Source: Sinorhizobium fredii (GTDB lineage Bacteria; Pseudomonadota; Alphaproteobacteria; Rhizobiales; Rhizobiaceae). From it: DNA of 64,000 nt. The position numbers were made by a program, and so were the translations under genes. This document shows, piece by piece, positions 32,612-43,416 of this stretch. The stretch's first letter is position 1, and every line of letters begins with the position of its first letter. The stretch covers positions 2,376,501 to 2,440,500 of the forward strand of contig NZ_CP024307.1 in the NCBI RefSeq assembly GCF_002944405.1, in the 5' to 3' direction. The notes beneath the pieces were generated by a model. That model had not been told where the DNA came from. It saw only the letters and a program-made list of their open reading frames with translations, and ran no database searches.

Positions 32612-33286
32612 ATGCCACAGGATTCTTGGAAGAATGCCGAGGCCGGCATGGCGCCTCGCACCGGCGGCTTTCTGCCGAAGCTGCCTATCCCCTATAGAGG
32701 CTCGAACGATCGGCTTACCATTGCCGAAATGGCAGAGGCTTTCGGCGTGACGCACCGCACCTTGCACTTCTACGAAGAGAAGGGACTGCTGAACGCCGCA
32801 CGCCTGGGCCCGATGCGGGTCTATGGCGAGAGCCATATCCGCCGCATGGCCGTGATCAACGCATGCCGGGAGATCGACATGCCGGTTGCCGGGATCCAGG
32901 ACCTGATGGCGGCGCTGGACGCGGCCGGAAGCCAGTCCGAGGCCAACCAAATCTTCGAGACGGCGCTTCGCTCGCGCCGGCGCGAGCTTGCGGCCCAGCA
33001 ATCGATCCTGCGCCGGCAGATGCAACGCATCGCCGAGCTGCTCGAAAACGGCTCCGGCGGGTCCGCTGATCCGGCATCCGGGGGCGTCCACCTGTCGCCG
33101 ATCGAGAGCGAATGCCTCGGCCTGATGGCGGAGGGGCACGCCGCCGCCCGCATCGCGCAACTGATGGAGATGGAAATCACCGCGGCTCTCGCGCTCGAGT
33201 CCGGAATTATCCGCAAATTCGATGCGCAAAATCGCTTCCAGGCGATCGCGAAGGCCGTGCTCGCCGGCATGATCGCGTCGGAATAG
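32612..33286 (+). CDS. MerR-type regulator with LuxR-like C-terminal helix-turn-helix
   Basis: A 224-residue protein. A MerR winged-helix lies at about residues 34-105 (LTIAEMAEAFGVTHRTLHFY followed by MRVYGESHIRRM). A coiled-coil dimerisation helix spans about 113-147. The C-terminal 60 residues (about 161-222) resemble a LuxR/GerE DNA-binding domain: LSPIESECLGLMAEG, then IAQLMEMEITAALALESGII, then AQNRFQAIAKAVLAG. MerR proteins normally carry a ligand domain there instead. GGGGGGCG precedes the ATG at 32612. Targets and ligand are unknown. Confidence 0.8.
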   Translation: MPQDSWKNAEAGMAPRTGGFLPKLPIPYRGSNDRLTIAEMAEAFGVTHRTLHFYEEKGLLNAARLGPMRVYGESHIRRMAVINACREIDMPVAGIQDLMAALDAAGSQSEANQIFETALRSRRRELAAQQSILRRQMQRIAELLENGSGGSADPASGGVHLSPIESECLGLMAEGHAAARIAQLMEMEITAALALESGIIRKFDAQNRFQAIAKAVLAGMIASE

Positions 33287-33561
33287 CACCGTCGGCACGA
33301 TTCCGCTCCACCAGGACCCGCCCTCCGAAAGGCCGCAGTCCACAAAGAGTTGTCATCATCCGTCCGTGGCGGTAGTATTTGCGCGCAGTTCCGGACGGCT
33401 GCGTCGACAGACTGCATGTTTCGTCAATGAGCTGCTTCTGATCGAACACAAGAGCCTCTCGTAGTTCGGGAGACATACTCAGAAGCTTATTTGCATCCGA
33501 CGCCAAGTTTGGCGCCTCCGCCGATTCGTATTGCATTCGGACGAATATTTTGGAGGAGAAG

Positions 33562-33807
33562 ATGAGCAAGCCTACTGTAACTTTGATTGTCTTTGGCGCC
33601 CTCGCCTTATCCGGGTGCCAGTCCGCTGCGACATCCCAGAGGGGAGGCGTCGGCGAATTCGGCTGTATTGCCGGGACCGTCGGCGGCGCGATCGTCGGCG
33701 GCGTGGTCGGCGCGACCATCGGTTCGGGCACCGGCCAGCTCTGGGCCGTCGGCGGCGGTGCCACGCTCGGCAGCGCGGCAGGCAACGCCCTGACCTGCGC
33801 CTATTAA
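33562..33807 (+). CDS. Small glycine-zipper lipoprotein
   Basis: An 81-residue predicted lipoprotein. Its lipobox is ALSGC, with lipidated Cys at residue 19, and the next residue is Gln, so outer-membrane sorting is expected. The mature part is a glycine-zipper (GGAIVGGVVGATIGSGTGQ) like SlyB/osmotically induced proteins, followed by Cys near the end (LTCAY). GGAGGAGAAG lies just upstream of the ATG at 33562. It probably sits in the outer membrane and helps envelope integrity; the exact role is unknown. Confidence 0.85.
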   Translation: MSKPTVTLIVFGALALSGCQSAATSQRGGVGEFGCIAGTVGGAIVGGVVGATIGSGTGQLWAVGGGATLGSAAGNALTCAY

Positions 33808-33896
33808 AGCGGAATGCGCTCGCTTACATTCCCGGCGCCAGTTCTATTGTTTGTTTTTGCCGCATTTGTGCGACGTCAGGCGATTCCGCCGTGCCG
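33808..33896 (+). repeat. Dispersed mosaic repeat, copy 3 (degenerate)
   Basis: The sequence has AATGCGCTCGCTTACATTC, then TTTTTGCCGCATTTGTGCG and GACGTCAGGCGATTCCGCC. It matches the copy at 13560-13652 but the palindrome arm is altered. It fills the gap between the lipoprotein and EF-hand genes, and part of it would be translated if an earlier start of the EF-hand gene were used. Confidence 0.65.
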
Positions 33897-33921
33897 CAAG
33901 ATGCTGAAGCGGAAGGTCGCC

Positions 33922-34275
33922 ATGCTGCCAAGACTCGCTCTTTCCACGGCGCTCGCGCTTTGCCAGCTCGTGTCGCCCGCACAGGCTCAGTCGGCGGCAA
34001 TGAACCAGGGTCAGATGGATCGCCTCGACCGTGACCGAAACGGAGCGGTTGACCGCTCCGAATACCAGGCGTTCATGACGATGGCCTTCGCAAGCCTGGA
34101 CAAGAACAAGGACGGCAGCCTGCGCTCCGACGAGGTGGCGCAGGCACTCACCGCCCAGCAATTTGCCGCCACCGACAAGAACGGCGACGGCAGGGTGAGC
34201 CAGACCGAATTCCTGAACAGGGTCATGGCCGATTTCCAGGCAGCCGACCGCAGCGGCGACGGCAACCTGGAATAG
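33922..34275 (+). CDS. Secreted EF-hand calcium-binding protein
   Basis: A 117-residue protein with a signal peptide (MLPRLALSTALALCQLVSPA, cleaved after AQA) and four EF-hand-type loops: DRDRNGAVDRSE, DKNKDGSLRSDE, DKNGDGRVSQTE and DRSGDGNLE (the last truncated at the C-terminus). GGAAGG lies five bases before the ATG at 33922. Earlier in-frame ATGs would put repeat sequence into the protein. It probably binds calcium in the periplasm. It converges with the last gene of the YcaO operon, 55 bp away. Confidence 0.85.
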   Translation: MLPRLALSTALALCQLVSPAQAQSAAMNQGQMDRLDRDRNGAVDRSEYQAFMTMAFASLDKNKDGSLRSDEVAQALTAQQFAATDKNGDGRVSQTEFLNRVMADFQAADRSGDGNLE

Positions 34276-34330
34276 CGGCTCGAACGCCGCCTGACAGCTC
34301 CCATGGACCGCGGACGTACCGTCCTATGCC

Positions 34331-35017
34331 TCAATCGCGGTGTCGGGCCGGCGCCAGCGCCATGGTTTGTGCATAGGCCATTGGCGAACGGCTGCCAGGC
34401 ATGTTCTCGTCGAGAACCAGCGTCTTTACATCATCGGAGCGAACGTCGAGAGCAATGACACGTTCGAGCTTGTCAATCTGCCAAACGGCGTAGCCAAGTT
34501 CCGGGACATATCCGCAGTCGCATCCACAATCGCCACCGATGATTTCTCTCGGCTCCGCGGGCAGATACATGATCTGCGGCTTCGGCAGCTTGTAGCAATG
34601 TCCCTCATAGGCGTAGCCATAAATCACGCCAATGCTCTTTATGTATTTACTGTCGTCTCCGCGAAAATTTCGCGACGGGATGTTTATCTCGACGGTAAGC
34701 TTTAGGACTTCCGCCTGGTTCTCATCAACTAAAGCCAAAACTATCTGCTGCTGAAACAGGTCAATGAGTTTCTTTTGGGCAACACGCCTGATGATGCCGG
34801 AGATAAGTTTCTTATCTTCGCTATTTATCTCACGACCTCTCAGTTCCTCTTCGAGAGTGAGGTCGATATTTCCGATTTCCTCGGGCGTAAATATCGATAG
34901 AGAGACAGCCGGGCGGCCATAAAGACGCACTTCGCTCGGATTGTAAGCGTCATATTGTGGAGCCTCGAGGCCTTTCGCCTGGTTGCCGACGCCGGGATGA
35001 TTGCAACAATCGCTCAT
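34331..35017 (-). CDS. Cys-containing protein of unknown family, last gene of TfuA-YcaO operon; candidate modification substrate
   Basis: A 228-residue soluble protein with no recognisable domain. The N-terminus is MSDCCNHPGVGNQAKG, with Cys4 and Cys5. A charged helical middle contains LEEELRGREINSEDKKLISG. A Cys/Gly cluster, GGDCGCDCGY (residues 161-170), follows Cys141. The C-terminal 50 residues are polar. GGAGAGGAAC precedes the ATG at 35017, and the gene starts 21 bp after the metallopeptidase-like gene. Its company with YcaO and TfuA and its Cys/Gly motif make it a candidate substrate for thioamide or azoline formation. It could equally be a structural or metal-binding partner. No leader-core peptide pattern is obvious. 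Confidence 0.7.
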   Translation of the reverse strand: MSDCCNHPGVGNQAKGLEAPQYDAYNPSEVRLYGRPAVSLSIFTPEEIGNIDLTLEEELRGREINSEDKKLISGIIRRVAQKKLIDLFQQQIVLALVDENQAEVLKLTVEINIPSRNFRGDDSKYIKSIGVIYGYAYEGHCYKLPKPQIMYLPAEPREIIGGDCGCDCGYVPELGYAVWQIDKLERVIALDVRSDDVKTLVLDENMPGSRSPMAYAQTMALAPARHRD

Positions 35018-35038
35018 GTTCCTCTCCTTTTCCTGGCC

Positions 35039-36223
35039 TCACCTTCGACCGATAATCTCGCGCCATGCGAAATTTGCTTCCAACACCTCCGCGGCCGCTC
35101 CAGGGGCAGCGGCAATGACGGCTGTTGCCGCCTGATCCAGACGCATCGTCGTGGGATCGAGCGTCCGCAATGAAGAGGCGAGCGCCTGTCCGACCGTGTC
35201 ACGCGCGGCGGCCAAAGCGAGCTCGAAGATCAACGGCTTCACCCGAAAGGCTTCGGCCGTTGCTGCGCGGAACGCATCGAAATCCCGCTGACTCAACGCG
35301 CGAAGGTCGAGGTCGAGAAGCCTGCTGTCGGCGCAATCCCGGGCAACCAGTTCGCGGTGATATAGCTCGACGATCGTATCGAAAATGGCGCCGACGAAGG
35401 GGAGCGCGCGGTCGTGGACTTCCCGGGTCACCTCCGACATGCGGCGAAAATTGGTGGCGAGCCGCACCTGGGTCTCGGGACTGGTTTCCGCAAAGCGGTT
35501 GAGCTCGTTGTATAAGAGAAGATTGCCCCTCGTTCGTCGCAACAGCCGGTCAATGGCAGAGCCGAAATGGAGGAACGAGATCAGCGAGACAGCGTCGGAA
35601 AACGCCTCCGAAAAGGGAAAGAAGTCAGCTTCGGGCGAGACTATCGTCGGCACGCCGGTTTCGGACAGAAGGATCAGATGTCCGACTTCGTGGGCGATCG
35701 TATCGAAATTCAACGCATACGGCCGTCGCACTCCGTCGGTATCCGAGCACCCCAATTCCAGGAAGCCGTAACCCGCCTGTGCGTTGTCCCAATTCACAAA
35801 GGCAACGATCTCGAGACGCGGAAAGGTCTGCTCGAAGAACCATCGAACCGGCCGGCCGAGATAGCTCTGCCATATGTCGAGAACGAAGTGCACACAGGCA
35901 TAGGCGTGCACGGCCAGGAATTCACGTGAGCTCGGCGATACATTGTCAAAATGACGGTCCGGCCCCGGCTTCGGTGCTGCGCGCCGCGGCCCGTCGAAGG
36001 GCGGCAGGCGATCGAAGCCGTAGGGTTGCTTTTCGGAGAGCGGATCGATGACATACATCGTCGCGTCACTTGGCCCCGCTCCGATCTCGTCCCTCAAAAT
36101 CGGCAGCCAAACTCGATCCGGTTGCTCGTAACCCGGGAGGAAAGGAGGCTGGGGGAAGATCCAGAAGCGCGTACCTAGACGCGCCTCGCCAGACTCGAGG
36201 GCCTCGTTCCGAAGCGGATGCAT
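35039..36223 (-). CDS. HExxH metallopeptidase-like protein of TfuA-YcaO operon
   Basis: A 394-residue protein from the ATG at 36223, which has a GAGGGGG ribosome-binding site. A TTG at 36259 directly abutting the tfuA stop is an alternative. The motif HEVGH (about residues 178-182), followed 24 residues later by EAFSD, matches the HExxH...ExxxD pattern of gluzincin-type zinc peptidases. No signal peptide is seen, so it should act in the cytoplasm. It may process the product of the YcaO/TfuA enzymes. No closer family is recognised. Confidence 0.75.
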   Translation of the reverse strand: MHPLRNEALESGEARLGTRFWIFPQPPFLPGYEQPDRVWLPILRDEIGAGPSDATMYVIDPLSEKQPYGFDRLPPFDGPRRAAPKPGPDRHFDNVSPSSREFLAVHAYACVHFVLDIWQSYLGRPVRWFFEQTFPRLEIVAFVNWDNAQAGYGFLELGCSDTDGVRRPYALNFDTIAHEVGHLILLSETGVPTIVSPEADFFPFSEAFSDAVSLISFLHFGSAIDRLLRRTRGNLLLYNELNRFAETSPETQVRLATNFRRMSEVTREVHDRALPFVGAIFDTIVELYHRELVARDCADSRLLDLDLRALSQRDFDAFRAATAEAFRVKPLIFELALAAARDTVGQALASSLRTLDPTTMRLDQAATAVIAAAPGAAAEVLEANFAWREIIGRR

Positions 36224-36259
36224 CGCACAATTGCCCCCTCGATCGGTGAAAACCGGCAA

Positions 36260-37066
36260 TCAGGGATTCAATTTATAAGTGTTCACTAATTTGGAGTCAA
36301 TGCCGCCAGCTTCCAGGTCCCGAATGAAGGTGTTCGTCGCGGCCCAAGCATTCTGGCCATCTGCCATCCGTGCCTCTCGCACAAGGCGCGGCGCCCTGTG
36401 AAGTGCCAGCAAAGCGTCTTCTCTCTTCTGACGCACCGCTTTCTGCCGTACCTCTTGAATGCGGCTGTCCGTCCATCCCGCGGCACCCAAAACCGCCGCT
36501 AGCGTCCGGTCGCGAAAGTTCATGTTTCGCGCCATTGTTGTGAGCTGCGCCCGTTCGGCGGCACTGATGACCCTGCGGCGCATCAGCGTGGAAAAGGTGC
36601 GCTGCAGATCGACGAGCGCGTCGGTCAGTTGCAGGAAGCCGAGCTCAGCCGGCCCCGAATGCACCGCCACGGCGTCGTCCGGGGCCAGGGCGGGGGGCGA
36701 GACGCAACCCTCCATTCGGGAAGAAAGAGCCCATCGCCGATACCACCTGTAGATCAGGCCGACGCCGATCATGCCGAAATCGCCGAGTTCCGCTGCTCTG
36801 AGCGCCCCCATGCTGGCGCCTCCGACCATGACAATTCCCTGGGCCATCGCCCAGAGGATTTCCTTGTGCCTGACGGCGGGCCGGTCTTCGAACCGGCCGT
36901 CGATCAAGACCATGGCACGGGGCCTGAAAGCATGGGCGGCCAGTAGAATATCACCTTGGGCGGCGGGCTGCAGATAGATGGCATCGAGCACCGCACGGGC
37001 CTCGTCAAGCCGCAGGGTCGGACCGAGAAACACCAGAATTGGACCGTCGCATCCCGCATCTGGCAT
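36260..37066 (-). CDS. TfuA-like core domain protein
   Basis: A 268-residue protein. The core resembles TfuA, the partner of YcaO in trifolitoxin synthesis: ILVFLGPTLRLDEARAVL near the start, RPAVRHKEILWAMAQG in the middle and GGASMGALRAAELGDFGMIG with IYRWYRRW (about residues 83-110). In characterised systems TfuA hydrolyses thiocarboxylated ThiS-like carriers to supply sulfide for YcaO-dependent thioamide formation. The ATG at 37066 lies four bases after the YcaO stop codon and follows AGGTGAGCAG, so the two are translationally coupled. A TTG start 13 codons earlier is less likely. Confidence 0.9.
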   Translation of the reverse strand: MPDAGCDGPILVFLGPTLRLDEARAVLDAIYLQPAAQGDILLAAHAFRPRAMVLIDGRFEDRPAVRHKEILWAMAQGIVMVGGASMGALRAAELGDFGMIGVGLIYRWYRRWALSSRMEGCVSPPALAPDDAVAVHSGPAELGFLQLTDALVDLQRTFSTLMRRRVISAAERAQLTTMARNMNFRDRTLAAVLGAAGWTDSRIQEVRQKAVRQKREDALLALHRAPRLVREARMADGQNAWAATNTFIRDLEAGGIDSKLVNTYKLNP

Positions 37067-37070
37067 CTGC

Positions 37071-38282
37071 TCACCTGACAACAGAGAAGGGATGGGCGCG
37101 GGCAAGGACCGTCCTCACGCACTGGACACCCGCTTCGCGATCATGCCCGACCGGAACGGCGACGACTGGGCCGAGGCCGGCCGCGAGAACGCTGCTCAGC
37201 AGGGAGCCAGCATCAGCCGCCGTCGACGAAGACGCCCCCTGCATCGGCCCTGCCGAAACCTCGGCGAGAATCAGCTGGCGGGCTCTCGCTACGACCTCCT
37301 CGGTGCTCCGCTTGTAGTGTGCTCTCGTCTGATCATCGCGAGCACCGGAGATCGCCCCTGCCCTCGCCGCCAGCGCTTCGAGCATGGCGCTTACGCCGGC
37401 TGCTTCGACGCTCGGACCTGCGGCATAGCCTTCCGTCGGCAGGGCGAGAATCGGCTCGCCAGAACCCGTCTCGATCGTCTGGCACCAGATGACCGCAAGG
37501 CCCGTCGGAGAAGGGGCCTGCCACAGGGCGACGGCTATGCCGCAGGATCCTGCAACGGAACAGACCCGATCGACCCCAGCGCCGAGCCCCGTCGTGGCGA
37601 TGCGCATCCGGTCGAAAAACCCGTGTGTGGCGAAAGCGCGGGCCATGGCGTCGCGCTCGATACATTCGAACAAGCCATGCAGATAGGCACTGTGGGCGTC
37701 CACATGGCAGGCCAGACCCGTTGTCGTGCGCACGAACCAGCCGTCGTGGACCGGCGGCGGTTCCGTGTAACAGGTGTGGACCAGCTCTAAAGGAACGGGC
37801 AGCGCGTGCCCCGTGGCGACATCGACGCCCATCGTCCAAGCTATGGTCCTGCTCCGCCAATCTTCCGAGCCGGCCACGACAAGAGTATCAAACAGGCCGT
37901 TGGCAATTTCGAGTTCCTCGGCCGTTGCGAGAAAGATGCGTTCGGGCGGAATGGCTTCGGCATAATAGCGCTCCAGCGATTCCATGATTGCTCCCACCGA
38001 CGCTTCAGTTGTCGTGAAGCCTCGCCCCAGAGAGGTGACTTCCGATAGAGCCGCCGGACGAACGGCTTGCACCACGGGGAGCCCCAGCCGGTCCAGCCCC
38101 GTCAGGTCGCCGATCCGCGTTATTCGAGCTCTCCTGCAAAGCGGCAGAAGTGCCTGGAACCGTCGTTTGGTTTCGTCAGGAGTGGAGTGAACGGAAAGGG
38201 CGGCGCGCGGGCATGAAACTAACGAGGCATAAAAATCGGCCAGATCCCCATTCAGGCTGGCTCGATCAGCGCCCCGCGACAA
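37071..38282 (-). CDS. YcaO-like ATP-dependent backbone-modifying enzyme
   Basis: A 403-residue protein from TTG 38282, seven bases after AGGAG; an ATG at 38384 lies 119 bp inside the upstream gene and is less likely. The ATP/Mg-binding acidic motifs are visible: SLERYYAEAI (about residues 102-111) and LFECIERDAMARAF (about 204-217), plus CHVDAHSAY just before. YcaO proteins phosphorylate peptide amide backbones so that a Cys/Ser side chain (azoline) or sulfide (thioamide) can attack. With an adjacent tfuA gene, thioamidation is the likely chemistry. The C-terminus ends HPFSVVR and lacks a Pro-rich PxPxP tail of azoline-forming cyclodehydratases. The upstream cyclase/ATPase gene overlaps it by 17 bp. 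Confidence 0.9.
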   Translation of the reverse strand: MSRGADRASLNGDLADFYASLVSCPRAALSVHSTPDETKRRFQALLPLCRRARITRIGDLTGLDRLGLPVVQAVRPAALSEVTSLGRGFTTTEASVGAIMESLERYYAEAIPPERIFLATAEELEIANGLFDTLVVAGSEDWRSRTIAWTMGVDVATGHALPVPLELVHTCYTEPPPVHDGWFVRTTTGLACHVDAHSAYLHGLFECIERDAMARAFATHGFFDRMRIATTGLGAGVDRVCSVAGSCGIAVALWQAPSPTGLAVIWCQTIETGSGEPILALPTEGYAAGPSVEAAGVSAMLEALAARAGAISGARDDQTRAHYKRSTEEVVARARQLILAEVSAGPMQGASSSTAADAGSLLSSVLAAGLGPVVAVPVGHDREAGVQCVRTVLARAHPFSVVR

Positions 38283-41200
38283 GACCCAGCTCCTGCATCG
38301 ATCGTCGGGCGCGCCTGACAAGCGTTGTCGCCCCCTGACTTTCGGCAATTTCAACGGCCGATCGAAGGTCTGCCGCGAGCGCATCGCGAGGCACTCCAGC
38401 CTGTGCGCCGAGTACCGTGCGGCAGCGGTGAAGCTCCGCCAGCCAATAGGCGTGACCGGTTTCCTCGGCCTTTTGGATCGCCTCGTTCACGATGTCGATC
38501 GCGTCCCCGAGCCTGCCGGCGAGCCCCACCAAGGTGGCATGCATATAGAGATAGATCGGCAGGTCGGCGACCGCCCCCAACGTCCTGAGAAGCGACAGGC
38601 CCTCCCGGAAGACGCTGTGACCACTCGCAAGATTTCCCCGATGAGCCTCGGCCCAGCCCCTGAAGAGTTGCGACAGGCCGGACAGCGACTGCATGTCGTG
38701 CTTCCTGGCAAAGTCCGCCATCCGCGCCGAAACCTCGATGAGGCGATCGAAATCGTCCCGGTAAAACGCCGATACGGCTTCCGTATCGAGCGAATGCGCC
38801 TTGCTCGGCGCATGGGCTATGCGGTCGACAAAAGCGATCATCCTGGAGAGCGCCGCATCCGATGCCTTGGTTTGCCCGGTCAGCCACAGGGAAAGCGCCA
38901 TTTGCCCAAGCCCGCAGACCTTCGCGTCGTGCCCACCGAATTCCGTCCGGCTCTTCCTCGCCGTTCGCTCGTCATAGAGCGCCAGGCCGGCCTTGATCGC
39001 CTCCTGGGTTTCGCGGTGCCGGCCGAGGTTGAAGTCGATCGCCCAGATGCAGTGGTTCACCTGCAGTTGGATCTCGGGGTCGTCCACCTTCGCCAGCATG
39101 GACTGCACTTCGAGCGCCCGGTCGTGCATGATGCGGAAGTCCGACCCGGTGAACCACCAGCCCCAGTAGATCGGGAACCACTTGGACTGCTCCTCCATCG
39201 GCTGCCGGCGGGCGATTTCCACGCCGTCTTCGTAGAGCTTGCGCGCGGGAGGCGAGTTCAGCCCCACCAGCCCCGTGAGAATCGGCCCCAGTGCCGTCAA
39301 CGCCGCCAGCTGCAAAGTCTCGACGGCGCTCTCCTCACCCAATTCGCTGCAGAGCGCCAGCGCATGTTCCAGATATTGCCGCGCCTCGATCATTGCCGAG
39401 CGGCTCGAGCTCTCCTTGCCGGCGGCAATCAGCAGTTCGACCGCATTCTCGATGAGCCCGGCCCGTTCGGCATGTTCGGCCAGTGCGCCGGTGTCGATCC
39501 AGGCGGCCATGCCGCGGTTCTGGTTGACGGCGCCGAAGAGCCGCCGGTGCAGCACCTGCCGCTGTTTGCGCAGCAGCGCGTTGTAGATCGTCTCCTGGAT
39601 CAGCACGTGGCGAAAGCCGTATGCAATGCTTCCTGGCGCGCGTACACGCGTCAGGAAGCCGGTCTCGCACAGCATATCGGCCGCACTTGCGATCGCCTTC
39701 TTGCTGAAATCGGGCAGAAGCACGCGCAGCAGGGGCAGGGTCACCTGCGTGCCGGCGGCGGCCGCCGCACGCGCCACTTCCCGGGCCGGCCCCAGATGCT
39801 GCAGCCGTGCGTCGAGTATGGATTCGAATGCGGATAGATGGACCGGCTTCATGGTCTCCGACAGGCTCGCCTCATCCGCTTCGGCACTTTGGGATGCCCA
39901 TTGGCAGATTTCCTCGATGAAAAGCGGGACGCCGCCGGATATCCGTTCCGCCACTTCGAAGAGCTCCGGCAGCCTCGCCAGCCGATGCTCAGGCCACTTC
40001 GCCCTGATCGCCAGCCGCGTTTCGTCGCTGTCGAGCGGCCGCAACGACAGCCGCAGCGGGGTTGCCGTATCCAGCCACTCGACCGGTGCACCGCGGCGCG
40101 ACGTCAAGATGAGAAAGATCGGGAATTGACCGATGAGCCGGGCTGCTTCGCCGAGCAGATCGCGCGAAGTCGGGTCTATCCAATGGATGTCCTCAACGGC
40201 GACGACCACAGGGCCGCTTCGCGAGACAGCTTCCAGCGTCCGCAAAAGCGCCCGGTGCGCCTTTTCACGGATCGCCTTGGGGTTGTCATTCGCCAGAAGC
40301 TGGTTTCGTCCCTCTGCTCCGAGCAGATAGGCGAAGACCTCGATCGCCTCCTTGTCCTCGATGCCGTTGCGCTCGAACAATGTCGCCACATCGGATGCCG
40401 TGACGCCCATCTGGCCGTTTCTCGTCGTCGACCCGGGAAAGCTGTGCAGCAGGGGATGCAGCGTCGAGCGCAATCCCCCGGGGAGGCACTGGAAGAAAAA
40501 CAGCTTCGAGCGCCGATCCCGCGTTCTCCTGCGGATCTCCCGCAAAAGGCGGGACTTGCCGATGCCGGCATCGCCCTCGATGAGCAGGCTTGCGCCCCGG
40601 CCGGCAAGAACGCCGTCCCAGGTACGAGCGATCGTATTAAGCTCGCTCTCGCGGTTGATGAACGGACCGCCCAGTCGCCCGTACGCATGGAAGCGATCGA
40701 CCTCCATCTTGTGTCCGAGCGCCCGCCACACTTTCTCGGGCGTTGAAAAGCCCTTGAGCGGCTTACTGCCCTGAAAAACGAAGGCGTGCGATCGCCCTGC
40801 CAGGTTTCGTGTCTCCTCCGAGACCAGGACGCTGTTGGGCTCGGCGATGACTTGCAGACGAGCGGCCATGGCGAGTGCCGCTCCGGTGACGGGCTCCTGC
40901 AGCCAGCTCTCGCGCTCCATGTCGCGGATGAGCGCCGCGGACGTGGCGATGCCGACGCGGACGCGAAGATCATCCCGTCCCCACTCTCGGCCGACGCGCT
41001 TGCAGGCGTCGACGATGTCGAGCCCCGCCCGGATGGCGAGCGAAGCCGCGTCCTTGGCATCGAGATCGATCGGAAACAGCGCCACGCCGCCATCGCCCGC
41101 CTCGTGCTGCATCACTCCGGAATGCGCGGCGATCGACTGCCTGCTCGACCGCTGGAAGGCGGACATCAGATCCTGATAATCCTCGATGTCCATGACATGC

Positions 41201-41340
41201 AGGAGATCGGTCGACCCTACGAGGTCGTAGCAAAGGGCGGTAACGATATGGCGCTCGCTGCCGTGTGCCGACGAACCGCCGGCGCGCGCGGTGCGACTGA
41301 CTCCTTTTCGTGGTGTATTGGTCCGGTTTTCGCGCAGCAT
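38266..41340 (-). CDS. Cyclase-domain/STAND AAA ATPase/TPR protein, first gene of TfuA-YcaO operon
   Basis: A 1024-residue protein from ATG 41340 (GGGGTGGTGGTGC upstream). Residues about 27-205 are a class III cyclase domain. The metal aspartates are kept (CYDLVGSTDLL, EAGDGGVALF), but the transition-state Asn of the NxxAAR motif is replaced by Ala (ALAMAARLQV). Residues 230-650 are a STAND-type AAA ATPase with Walker A GDAGIGKSRLLREI (about 256) and Walker B VVVAVEDIHWIDPTSR. The remainder is TPR-like repeats. It resembles large signalling ATPases of the LuxR/CyaA type and may act as regulator of the operon. It has no membrane segment. The overlapping YcaO gene follows. Confidence 0.85.
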   Translation of the reverse strand: MLRENRTNTPRKGVSRTARAGGSSAHGSERHIVTALCYDLVGSTDLLHVMDIEDYQDLMSAFQRSSRQSIAAHSGVMQHEAGDGGVALFPIDLDAKDAASLAIRAGLDIVDACKRVGREWGRDDLRVRVGIATSAALIRDMERESWLQEPVTGAALAMAARLQVIAEPNSVLVSEETRNLAGRSHAFVFQGSKPLKGFSTPEKVWRALGHKMEVDRFHAYGRLGGPFINRESELNTIARTWDGVLAGRGASLLIEGDAGIGKSRLLREIRRRTRDRRSKLFFFQCLPGGLRSTLHPLLHSFPGSTTRNGQMGVTASDVATLFERNGIEDKEAIEVFAYLLGAEGRNQLLANDNPKAIREKAHRALLRTLEAVSRSGPVVVAVEDIHWIDPTSRDLLGEAARLIGQFPIFLILTSRRGAPVEWLDTATPLRLSLRPLDSDETRLAIRAKWPEHRLARLPELFEVAERISGGVPLFIEEICQWASQSAEADEASLSETMKPVHLSAFESILDARLQHLGPAREVARAAAAAGTQVTLPLLRVLLPDFSKKAIASAADMLCETGFLTRVRAPGSIAYGFRHVLIQETIYNALLRKQRQVLHRRLFGAVNQNRGMAAWIDTGALAEHAERAGLIENAVELLIAAGKESSSRSAMIEARQYLEHALALCSELGEESAVETLQLAALTALGPILTGLVGLNSPPARKLYEDGVEIARRQPMEEQSKWFPIYWGWWFTGSDFRIMHDRALEVQSMLAKVDDPEIQLQVNHCIWAIDFNLGRHRETQEAIKAGLALYDERTARKSRTEFGGHDAKVCGLGQMALSLWLTGQTKASDAALSRMIAFVDRIAHAPSKAHSLDTEAVSAFYRDDFDRLIEVSARMADFARKHDMQSLSGLSQLFRGWAEAHRGNLASGHSVFREGLSLLRTLGAVADLPIYLYMHATLVGLAGRLGDAIDIVNEAIQKAEETGHAYWLAELHRCRTVLGAQAGVPRDALAADLRSAVEIAESQGATTLVRRARRSMQELGLVAGR

Positions 41341-41619
41341 GCACCACCACCCCGCGTTCGGCAGCGCGCCCCCGAAGACTATACGCGCATGTTCAAGACA
41401 AATAAGCTGGTTCTTGCAATTTCTGAAATATCTGGCTTGATAGGCGTGCTGCAGACCATGCGTCACGCTCCCCACTTGGCGTAGCCAAGGCTGCTCACCG
41501 AAACCGGTCTATGTCAATCGGCGCAGAGTTGCAACGATCCGATCTCTCTATTTGAGCCCGCACGATGGCATGTTGAGATCAAAAGCGATCGCGGCCGTAT
41601 GACGAAAGCGGCCATTCTG

Positions 41620-42252
41620 TCAGCTCTTCTGCAGGGCGAGATGGGCGCCCAATCCGATGAGCGTGGCGCCGCCAACGCGCTGAACCAGACGCTGGGTGCG
41701 ACTTGAATGCCTGAGCCTCGATACGAGCACGCTGGCGAGCATGACGCAGAGGATGTCCGCCGACGAGAACATCAGGTTGACGATCGACCCGAGGACGACG
41801 AATTGCACCCATACGGGAAGTGTGGCTGACGTGTCGATGAACTGCGGCAGGAAGGAAACGAAGAAGATCGCGGTCTTCGGATTGAGAACCTCGATTGTGA
41901 CGCTCTCGAAAAGGGCACGCCGGCCCGATTTCGCCTGCACCCCCGGCAATACCACATCGCCTTGAGCCTTGGCACGGAAGAGCGAAACACCCATCCAGAT
42001 CAGATAGGCGGCACCGGCCAGCTTGACGGTCAGATAAAGTGTGGGCACGGCATGAAAGAGGGCCGAAAGCCCTGCAGCAGCCGCAGCGACATGCACATAG
42101 CCGCCGATGTGAATGCCGAGCGTCGCCATCACACCGGACCAGCGGCCGCGCGCCATCGTCTGGGCGGCCGCGTAGAGCATGGCCGGTCCCGGCACATAGG
42201 CGAATACGGCGGTGGTGACGAGAAAGGTGATCAGCAAACCGGTCGACGGCAT
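41620..42252 (-). CDS. LysE/RhtB family amino-acid exporter
   Basis: A 210-residue inner membrane protein with about six helices. It begins MPSTGLLITFLVTTAVFAYVPGPAMLY, and the PGPAMLYAAAQTMARG segment is the LysE/RhtB signature. LNPKTAIFFVSFLPQFI is a second family motif. AAAGGAG precedes the ATG at 42252. It exports amino acids or derivatives (homoserine, threonine, cysteine and so on). Which one is exported here is unknown. It lies upstream of the cyclase/STAND gene on the same strand, with 279 bp between. Confidence 0.9.
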   Translation of the reverse strand: MPSTGLLITFLVTTAVFAYVPGPAMLYAAAQTMARGRWSGVMATLGIHIGGYVHVAAAAAGLSALFHAVPTLYLTVKLAGAAYLIWMGVSLFRAKAQGDVVLPGVQAKSGRRALFESVTIEVLNPKTAIFFVSFLPQFIDTSATLPVWVQFVVLGSIVNLMFSSADILCVMLASVLVSRLRHSSRTQRLVQRVGGATLIGLGAHLALQKS

Positions 42253-42288
42253 TAGCGGCTCCTTTGGAGGCAACTCTTCGCAGAACGA

Positions 42289-43416
42289 TTACCTGACGAT
42301 CGTCAGCCGCTCCGCCGCGCGGGTGATTGCCGTGTAGAGCCAGCGTTCGCGCGTATCGCGGAAGGCCCAGCTCTCGTCGAAGAGCACGACATTGTCCCAT
42401 TGCGAACCCTGTGCCTTGTGCACGGTCAGCGCATAGCCATAGTCGAACTCGTCGTAGCGTTTGCGGGTGGACCAGGGAATCTCGCCCTCGACCTCTTCGA
42501 AGGCCGCTTTCAAGAGCTTGATCTTCGCCGCGCCGCGGTCCATGTCATCCTCTTCGGGACGGATCATCAGGTTGATCCCCGGCTTCACCGTCTCTTTCGA
42601 CGAGCTCATCACCTGCCAGAGAGAACCGTTGAGCAGGCCTTTGGCAGGATCGTTCCTCAGGCAGACGAGCTTGTCGCCCGATTGAGGATACTCGCTCGAA
42701 AAACCCTTCAGCTCGCGCAGACGTTGGTTGTAGCGCCGCCGCGTCCGGTTGGTGCCGACAAGCACCTGGTCGGCTTCCAGCACCAGCGGCTGGGTGACCT
42801 CGCTCTTGGAGATGATCTGTGCCGTGCCGTAGTCGCCCTGCATGATCTCCTTGCCCTCGCGAACATGCATGGCGAGCTGGATGATCGGGTTGTCGCGCGC
42901 CTGGCGGTGGATATCGGTCAGCAGATAGTCCGGCTCGTGATTGGTGAAATAGCCGCCGCCCGACACGGGCGGCAACTGACCCGGATCGCCGAGCACCAGG
43001 ATTGGCGTGCCGAAGCTCATCAGGTCCTTGCCGAGCGCCTCGTCGACCATCGAGCATTCGTCGATGATGATCAGCGCCGCCTTGGCGACCGGGCTCTGGC
43101 GGTTGATGGCGAACATCGGCGCGATCGAGGTCTTGCCGGTCTCCTCGTCCGCGACCTCCTCCTCGCCACGAGGCCGGTAGATCAGCGAATGAATGGTCTT
43201 GGCATTGCTGGCGCCCTTGGAACGCAGCACCTGCGCGGCCTTGCCGGTGAAGGCCGCAAAGAGCACCTCGCCGTCGACGTGCTCCGCGAAATGCCGTGCC
43301 AGCGTCGTCTTGCCGGTGCCGGCATAGCCGAACAGCCGGAAGAGCGGCGAGCGGCCTTCCTTCAGCCAACGCGAAACGGCCTTCAGGGCCTCGTCCTGTT
43401 GCGGAGCGAATTGCAT
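42289..43416 (-). CDS. RecD-like ATP-dependent DNA helicase (superfamily 1)
   Basis: A 375-residue SF1B helicase fold. Motif I is GYAGTGKTTLARHF (about residues 30-43), motif II IIIDECSMVDE, motif III ILVLGDPGQLPPV, and motif VI YTAITRAAERLTIV at the extreme C-terminus. ALTVHKAQGSQWDNVVL is motif V. It is shorter than RecD2 and lacks its N-terminal domains, so it is a compact RecD-like/Dda-like enzyme that probably unwinds DNA 5' to 3'. A small ORF ends 11 bp upstream. Confidence 0.9.
   Translation of the reverse strand: MQFAPQQDEALKAVSRWLKEGRSPLFRLFGYAGTGKTTLARHFAEHVDGEVLFAAFTGKAAQVLRSKGASNAKTIHSLIYRPRGEEEVADEETGKTSIAPMFAINRQSPVAKAALIIIDECSMVDEALGKDLMSFGTPILVLGDPGQLPPVSGGGYFTNHEPDYLLTDIHRQARDNPIIQLAMHVREGKEIMQGDYGTAQIISKSEVTQPLVLEADQVLVGTNRTRRRYNQRLRELKGFSSEYPQSGDKLVCLRNDPAKGLLNGSLWQVMSSSKETVKPGINLMIRPEEDDMDRGAAKIKLLKAAFEEVEGEIPWSTRKRYDEFDYGYALTVHKAQGSQWDNVVLFDESWAFRDTRERWLYTAITRAAERLTIVR

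Follow-up and report, generated by a model that had tools for sequence, protein, structure and literature searches.

A window of 64,000 nucleotides from Sinorhizobium fredii (assembly GCF_002944405.1, contig NZ_CP024307.1, positions 2,376,501 to 2,440,500; by the window we mean this whole stretch) carries on its minus strand a cassette of five genes, in which YcaO and TfuA are accompanied by a cyclase/STAND protein, a zinc peptidase and a last protein of 228 amino acids (aa). The DNA belongs to a chromosome of Sinorhizobium type in a genome of 6.56 Mb, and the closest homologues of the cassette proteins are found in Sinorhizobium americanum and S. fredii. An earlier note on this sequence had described five closely spaced genes, and all five open reading frames (ORFs) are present where it placed them (Table 1). 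With the starts adopted there the first three products are of 1024, 403 and 268 aa. The cyclase/STAND gene overlaps that of YcaO by 17 bp, and gaps of 4, 36 and 21 bp follow at the YcaO-TfuA, TfuA-peptidase and peptidase-228-aa junctions. We use the word precursor below for the 228-aa protein and its homologues, as candidates for that role.

Table 1. Genes of the cassette and parts of the candidate precursor, in coordinates of the window.
Feature	Position (strand)	Description
Cyclase/STAND protein	38266..41340 (-)	Class III cyclase-like domain, STAND/AAA_16 ATPase and long C-terminal part
YcaO	37071..38282 (-)	PF02624, 146 bits
TfuA	36260..37066 (-)	PF07812, 126.9 bits; NF033432, 155 bits (cut-off 235)
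M36/M4-like zinc peptidase, 394 aa	35039..36223 (-)	Probable releasing protease
Precursor/substrate candidate, 228 aa	34331..35017 (-)	N-terminal strand, variable insert, globular core, C-terminal tail
Precursor variable insert, residues 37-125	34643..34909 (-)	
Precursor globular core, residues 126-200	34418..34642 (-)	G-Y-x-Y-E-G ... W-x-x-D-K
Precursor C-terminal tail, residues 201-228 + stop	34331..34417 (-)	Candidate modified and released part

The longest ORF of the cyclase/STAND gene opens at 41475; the ATG at 41340, with the stop at 38266, gives the 1024 aa that are matched in loci L003 and L005. For YcaO the longest ORF begins at 38384, and the shorter start yields the 17-bp overlap that is likewise found in L003. 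The TfuA start is that of the earlier note, the longest ORF running from 37105, and 394 aa is the commonest length among the peptidase homologues listed (lists of homologous proteins held the best 120 of 442 and the best 120 of 288). Scans of the locus returned no promoter sites against 1.6 expected and nine terminators against 6.6 expected, and an Rfam scan of positions 33000-43000 gave no match.

How general is the five-gene arrangement? Failure of the genes to occur together in related genomes was one of the outcomes that the earlier note had named as refuting its reading; together, however, they do occur. Loci were collected by a peptidase search alone, with one genome per species, and we analyzed the best 80 of 134 confirmed relatives, so that the sample leans towards near kin. 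All 80 loci have the five genes on one strand and in one order, one gene being split in two pieces in five of them. The hosts include Sinorhizobium, Ensifer, Rhizobium, Mesorhizobium, Phyllobacterium, Chelativorans, Pseudaminobacter, Stappia, Roseibium/Labrenzia, Microvirga and others, and the five genes also form a run on three Rhizobium plasmids inspected, of which L127 has a short annotated precursor start. The five-gene set forms a real unit, beyond chance. Within the genus a strong peptidase match (at least 280 bits) is present in 30 of 33 genomes, and in 29 of these 30 the next gene encodes a member of the 228-aa family; only G427 departs from this, a genome that is 70% complete and whose match is truncated. 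Neither peptidase nor precursor is found in G402 and G425, and G422 has a short precursor remnant only. The phylum and the class were also sampled evenly, with genomes in common between the two samples, and the peptidase is matched at E 0.001 in 14 of 398 genomes of the former and 13 of 385 of the latter. Strong matches number seven in the phylum sample (>500 bits) and eight in the class sample (>300 bits), and all of them fall in the window's own class.

The neighbourhood of the cassette is not conserved in the same way. With L001 and L002 excluded from the counts, none of the further ORF families of at least 60 aa (first 40 clusters) is common to more than 15 of 81 loci, and those reaching up to 15 consist for the most part of flank genes of Sinorhizobium with their reverse-strand shadows, together with one position-scattered cluster. 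Among the conserved flank ORFs of this size in the 81 loci there is no separate small precursor, nor any transporter family conserved across genera. The presence of the cassette in 30 of 33 genus genomes points to everyday or symbiotic functions rather than to strain warfare. The trifolitoxin (tfx) cluster contains the flavin dehydrogenase TfxB and the small precursor TfxA. The antagonism of a trifolitoxin-like kind that the earlier note implied was not borne out: no dehydrogenase is found in the five genes, no transporter or other ORF family of at least 60 aa is conserved alongside them across genera, and their occurrence throughout most of the genus makes a bacteriocin of this type unlikely.

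In at least 97% of 81 aligned rows the YcaO protein keeps E135, E138, E240, E243 and R244 (numbered in the 437-aa ORF), and we take these to be the ATP/Mg residues. TfuA is the next gene. For both proteins the best NCBIfam models are those of the McrA system, and both scores lie below the cut-offs (TIGR03266, 118.9 against 365 bits; NF033432, 155.2 against 235.2 bits). The cassette belongs with the YcaO-TfuA systems but falls outside every named family tested. It looks, as the earlier note had supposed, like a system built on YcaO-TfuA for modifying a peptide or protein.

YcaO and TfuA genes occur elsewhere in these genomes as well. At least one TfuA is present in 33 of 33 genus genomes, including those that lack the cassette. 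Genome G000 has a second YcaO without adjacent TfuA (L097:6504-7778, on G000:C1 at ~2.60 Mb), beside regulators that by eye are BTAD-like and XRE-type, and a second TfuA (L096:7848-8588, on G000:C4) next to a regulator that by eye is XRE-type, the only two YcaO matches of the genome being on C1. The lone YcaO and the second TfuA may be a split second system. Long TfuA proteins of ~430-444 aa, extending ~270 residues past the Pfam domain, are encoded in L113 (5964-7295), L150 (4295-5584), L159-L162 and L165; they belong to the GMSAR kind (see below), the Paracoccus kind and the G560 kind, and in L113 and L150 they have no second Pfam domain.

The first gene matches AAA_16 (66.6 bits) and the class III cyclase family (25.1 bits) in Pfam, and tetratricopeptide repeats (TPR) at E 0.8 only. 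Against the TOMM_kin_cyc model (TIGR03903) it scores 301.9 bits, where the cut-off is 705.75, and the match begins at model position 267; thus the N-terminal kinase part is lacking. The Walker A pattern is found in 78 of 81 rows. The two metal positions of the cyclase are Asp in 75 and 78 of the 81 rows, and the position of the transition-state Asn is Ala in 69; the cyclase domain has probably lost normal catalysis. In L023 (Chelativorans) and L044 (Pseudaminobacter) the first gene is just 36% identical to that of the window, the other four genes being 45-69% identical, and L023 has Glu in place of the first metal Asp.

A STAND-type ATPase with a cyclase-like domain is reminiscent of defence, and a weak similarity of the cyclase part to Pycsar cyclase models (E 3.9e-7) and the variable insert of one partner could be accommodated in a scheme with the cyclase/STAND protein as sensor of infection, the peptidase as effector and YcaO-TfuA as modifier of a regulator. 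However, PADLOC at E 0.01 gave no match for the other four proteins, the cyclase Asn position is Ala in 69 of 81 rows, and a cassette occurring through most of the genus, with flank genes common to up to 15 Sinorhizobium-type loci, is not patchy as defence usually is. We consider such a role very improbable, the least probable of the explanations discussed here.

The peptidase is modelled as an M36/M4 thermolysin-like fold with an intact zinc site. Its zinc-site residues H190, E191, H194 and E218 (HExxH and the downstream Glu) are invariant in alignments of 20 and 19 rows, and no signal sequence is seen by eye. A Pfam scan of the peptidase and the 228-aa protein returned no significant match, and a search of the Protein Data Bank (PDB) with the peptidase alignment found nothing up to E 1. 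Nine genus genomes (e.g. G413, G406, G412 and G429) have in addition a larger open frame of 711-719 aa that matches the peptidase weakly and shares a contig with the cassette, at a distance of ~21-28 kb; the window's genome gave no match of this kind.

The 228-aa family includes 117 proteins at E <= 0.001. Their alignment shows conservation at the N-terminus, in the core and in the C-terminal tail, and between the first two an insert whose length and sequence vary. Over nine Sinorhizobium/Ensifer loci the ratio of non-synonymous to synonymous differences per site (pN/pS), uncorrected and with pS near saturation at ~0.55-0.75, is 0.26 for the N-terminus, 0.516 for the insert, 0.043 for the core and 0.079 for the tail; for five closer loci the insert and tail give 0.235 and 0.04. 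Whole-gene values for the nine loci are 0.22 (cyclase), 0.36 (YcaO), 0.33 (TfuA) and 0.18 (peptidase). As all of the ratios are below 1, the insert is relaxed or fast-evolving, and positive selection is not shown. The single-copy tail of the window's lineage is, by these ratios, under strong purifying selection, and N205, P207, G208, R210, P212 and Y215 within it are kept in at least 97% of 81 rows. AlphaFold2 models the body of the protein well, with a predicted local distance difference test (pLDDT) of 83.5, and gives low values for blocks of the tail (73, 56 and 58). Comparison with known structures yielded one chance-like row (E 0.53) in a PDB sequence search with the precursor alignment and a best E of 0.8 in Foldseek; there is no clear PDB fold match, which does not make the fold new, and the indirect fold rows span mainly residues 37-103. 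The precursor also has a Cys-rich loop, CGCDCGY (residues 164-170; window 34508-34528), a candidate metal site. In S. terangae and S. psoraleae (L010 and L011) the loop is a long Cys/His/Asp/Glu-rich stretch, and in Mesorhizobium it is shortened.

More distant cassettes give a hint of the nature of the tail. A profile of ten distant last-gene products aligns with that of the 228-aa family with probability 98.6 and E 8.9e-16 over the core, so that the two are homologous there at profile level. The distant tails are tandem arrays of 3-12 short units, such as VSGAR ×8, RAVMAS-like ×12, DLVGRS ×4, GMNV ×4 and GMSV-x ×3, with GMSAR ×6, MGRSGG ×4 and SRSGG units in further examples. In a shuffle test of nine distant precursors, none of 2000 shuffles reached the score of seven of them, two of which, L130 and L154, are near kin. 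Outside the shuffled set, a further seven precursors, five with GMSAR and two with MGRSGG, also repeat. The GMSAR tails belong to a Rhizobium kind with the order YcaO-TfuA-peptidase-precursor-cyclase (L159-L162 and L165), with 5-6 exact units each. Units that encode one and the same peptide mostly differ in their codons: all eight VSGAR, all six GMSAR (L159) and all four DLVGRS units have distinct DNA, and there are six DNA versions among nine RAVMAS and three among four GMGRSGG units. Thus the arrays are old, and selection keeps the peptide. Two distant stretches yielded no precursor: L116, whose 60-bit match is close to the end of a contig, and L117, whose contig breaks off at the peptidase. 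The identification of the 228-aa protein as the probable precursor or substrate, through its repeat-tailed counterparts, is new here. The window's tail takes the place of the distant repeat arrays, and these suggest what its purpose may be.

Putting these elements together, we propose, with a probability of about 0.62, that the 228-aa protein is turned by the cassette into a thioamidated peptide, or into a protein whose tail bears a thioamide. Its folded core would act as a large leader recognised by YcaO-TfuA, which would turn at least one backbone amide of the C-terminal tail into a thioamide. The site would lie in the PGxRSP region in the window's lineage, and in each VSGAR, RAVMAS, GMSAR or DLVGRS unit of the repeat-tailed relatives. 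The M36/M4-like peptidase would then cut the tail off, releasing several copies of a short peptide where the tail is repeated, and the product of the gene overlapping ycaO, the cyclase/STAND protein, may serve as an ATP-dependent sensor or regulator.

Should the tail be released at all? The 228-aa protein could stay whole, with the thioamide in its tail as in McrA or uL16, and the peptidase be concerned with quality control or regulation. In contrast to a toxin core that diversifies, the tail of the window's lineage is strongly conserved and present as a single copy, the cassette has no conserved transporter family beside it, and YcaO alone reads folded uL16 in the published account that we draw on here (PMC13063428). 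Yet arrays of several short units in the relatives suit the release of a multi-copy peptide better, and the complete cassettes that were inspected, apart from that of Paracoccus kondratievae, have a zinc-intact peptidase next to the precursor. We therefore regard a protein that is modified and left whole as unlikely.

The association of the precursor with the modifying enzymes can be examined in Rhizobium. Of 119 genomes, 34 have the precursor, 33 have TfuA and 27 have both (Fisher p 9e-15, uncorrected for kinship). A number of observations weigh against the proposal made above. Seven of the 34 precursor-bearing genomes have neither a TfuA nor a YcaO match, where seven of seven other genomes in the same search did match YcaO, and in the two such loci inspected cyclase, peptidase and a precursor with a repeat tail lie adjacent. 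Peptidase and tail thus exist there without thioamidation, which speaks against a strict dependence upon it. Conversely, P. kondratievae has the order YcaO-TfuA-precursor with no adjacent peptidase, and six Rhizobium genomes have TfuA with no precursor match, though the profile detects the window's kind weakly. The repeat itself is absent from the tail in the window's kind: among 12 members tested by shuffling the best signal was reached in 26 of 1000 shuffles and lies near the N-terminus, and the score of the window's protein was reached by 370 of 1000. Of the distant precursors, L113 has no repeat (680 of 2000 shuffles) and L150 a weak one (93 of 2000). A first, narrower precursor profile failed to detect L112, L115 and L100, and its scores for L114 and L113 were just 17 and 12 bits, so that for the most divergent rows, and for L112 in particular, homology leans on profile membership and on their place behind the peptidase. 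Lastly, the AlphaFold2 model puts a helix at 212-221, inside the tail.

Plasmid records likewise show the order cyclase-peptidase-precursor with no adjacent YcaO or TfuA, and in G637 the sole YcaO match is on another contig. As there are cassettes without YcaO/TfuA and a cassette without the peptidase, the precursor is the constant member, and from the gene content modification and cleavage look like separable modules. These loci provide a natural experiment that can separate the contribution of thioamidation. The Rhizobium plasmid versions also have small extra annotated ORFs behind the precursor (L128:10709-11074, L129:10686-11126, L151:9637-9975 and L154:6624-6956), of which no counterpart was noticed in the window.

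The cassettes devoid of YcaO/TfuA bear upon two other explanations. It is possible, although we hold this with a good deal less conviction than the proposal above, that the essential process is a form of peptide release in Alphaproteobacteria, by which an intracellular M36/M4-like protease acts on a folded carrier whose tail is often repeated and rich in Met, Arg and Gly; thioamidation would be a lineage-specific addition, and the cyclase-like protein, which in the window's kind is the cyclase/STAND protein, would couple release to the state of the cell. If so, this would be a bacterial system of repeat-peptide signalling or regulation kept in nearly all Sinorhizobium. The same cassettes, and the precursor genomes with no YcaO/TfuA match at all, could also be read as a protease with its inhibitor or chaperone, the YcaO-TfuA pair being an unrelated neighbour; the genes for an intracellular M4 protease and its inhibitor, protealysin and emfourin, share an operon in Serratia proteamaculans (PMC9505478, from the portion of that paper available to us). 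Against such a pair stand the locus with YcaO-TfuA-precursor and no adjacent peptidase, and the co-occurrence of precursor and TfuA in 27 of 34 genomes. Furthermore, we know of no role of repeat tails in an inhibitor, and we think this explanation has little likelihood. We return to thioamidation and release from the 228-aa protein as the preferred reading, and compare it with known systems.

In the TOMM kinase/cyclase clusters (TIGR03903) a cyclase/STAND protein likewise stands beside YcaO, together with a set of enzymes making thiazoles and oxazoles. By contrast there is no kinase part here, and TfuA and the peptidase take the place of the thiazole/oxazole set.

The closest precedent is that of the thiovarsolins of Streptomyces varsoviensis, as described in the available part of that work (PMC6511847): a core of APR repeats is the target of YcaO and TfuA, and its Pro-Arg amide is converted to a thioamide. 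That pathway (varA, varY, varT and varO) shares with ours YcaO and TfuA, a repeating core and a unit ending in Arg, and the family includes a member with a non-repeating precursor. Several of our units also have a small residue before Arg, as in APR (SGAR, MSAR and VGR), although GMNV does not. The differences are considerable: here we find a large folded domain as putative leader, a dedicated M36/M4-like peptidase, a cyclase/STAND protein and units other than APR, and by Pfam there is no VarO, transporter or ATP-grasp ligase among the five genes. The window's cassette does not combine an APR/GPR repeat with VarO, by which the thiovarsolin family is recognised.

The methanogen YcaO-TfuA system that makes thioglycine in McrA (PMC5589413, in the part consulted) provides the best-scoring models, but its partners differ, as does the probable substrate. 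The Escherichia coli YcaO, in the accessible text of PMC13063428, reads the folded ribosomal protein uL16, with the modified site at Met82. A folded substrate is a point in common, and many of the repeat units here hold Met. However, the E. coli enzyme is a stand-alone YcaO with its own TPR part, and has no TfuA or nearby precursor gene. The protealysin-emfourin operon is similar in that an intracellular M4-type protease is encoded together with another protein; what we have of that paper (PMC9505478) describes neither YcaO-TfuA nor a repeat tail. The 228-aa protein itself has no significant Pfam match and no clear PDB fold match.

None of the thioamide pathways in the literature compared has this set of partners, in keeping with the earlier note, and searches of the open-access literature listed no description of the gene set. 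A global mining survey counted more than 500 TfuA clusters in Rhizobium (PMC8120280), which probably overlap the loci described here, and no such folded precursor, repeat tail or M36/M4 peptidase is named in the sections of it that we could draw on. The default precursor window of RiPPER is given as 20-120 aa in the material available, and the present precursors are of about 150-290 aa; this is one reason that such precursors get missed. The substrate of TfuA-associated YcaO proteins was left unknown by a survey of 2015 (PMC4603692, again in the part seen). Our analysis names a specific candidate substrate, its region and its protease for a TfuA-associated YcaO, in a group where, on the count of PMC8120280, TfuA clusters are abundant.

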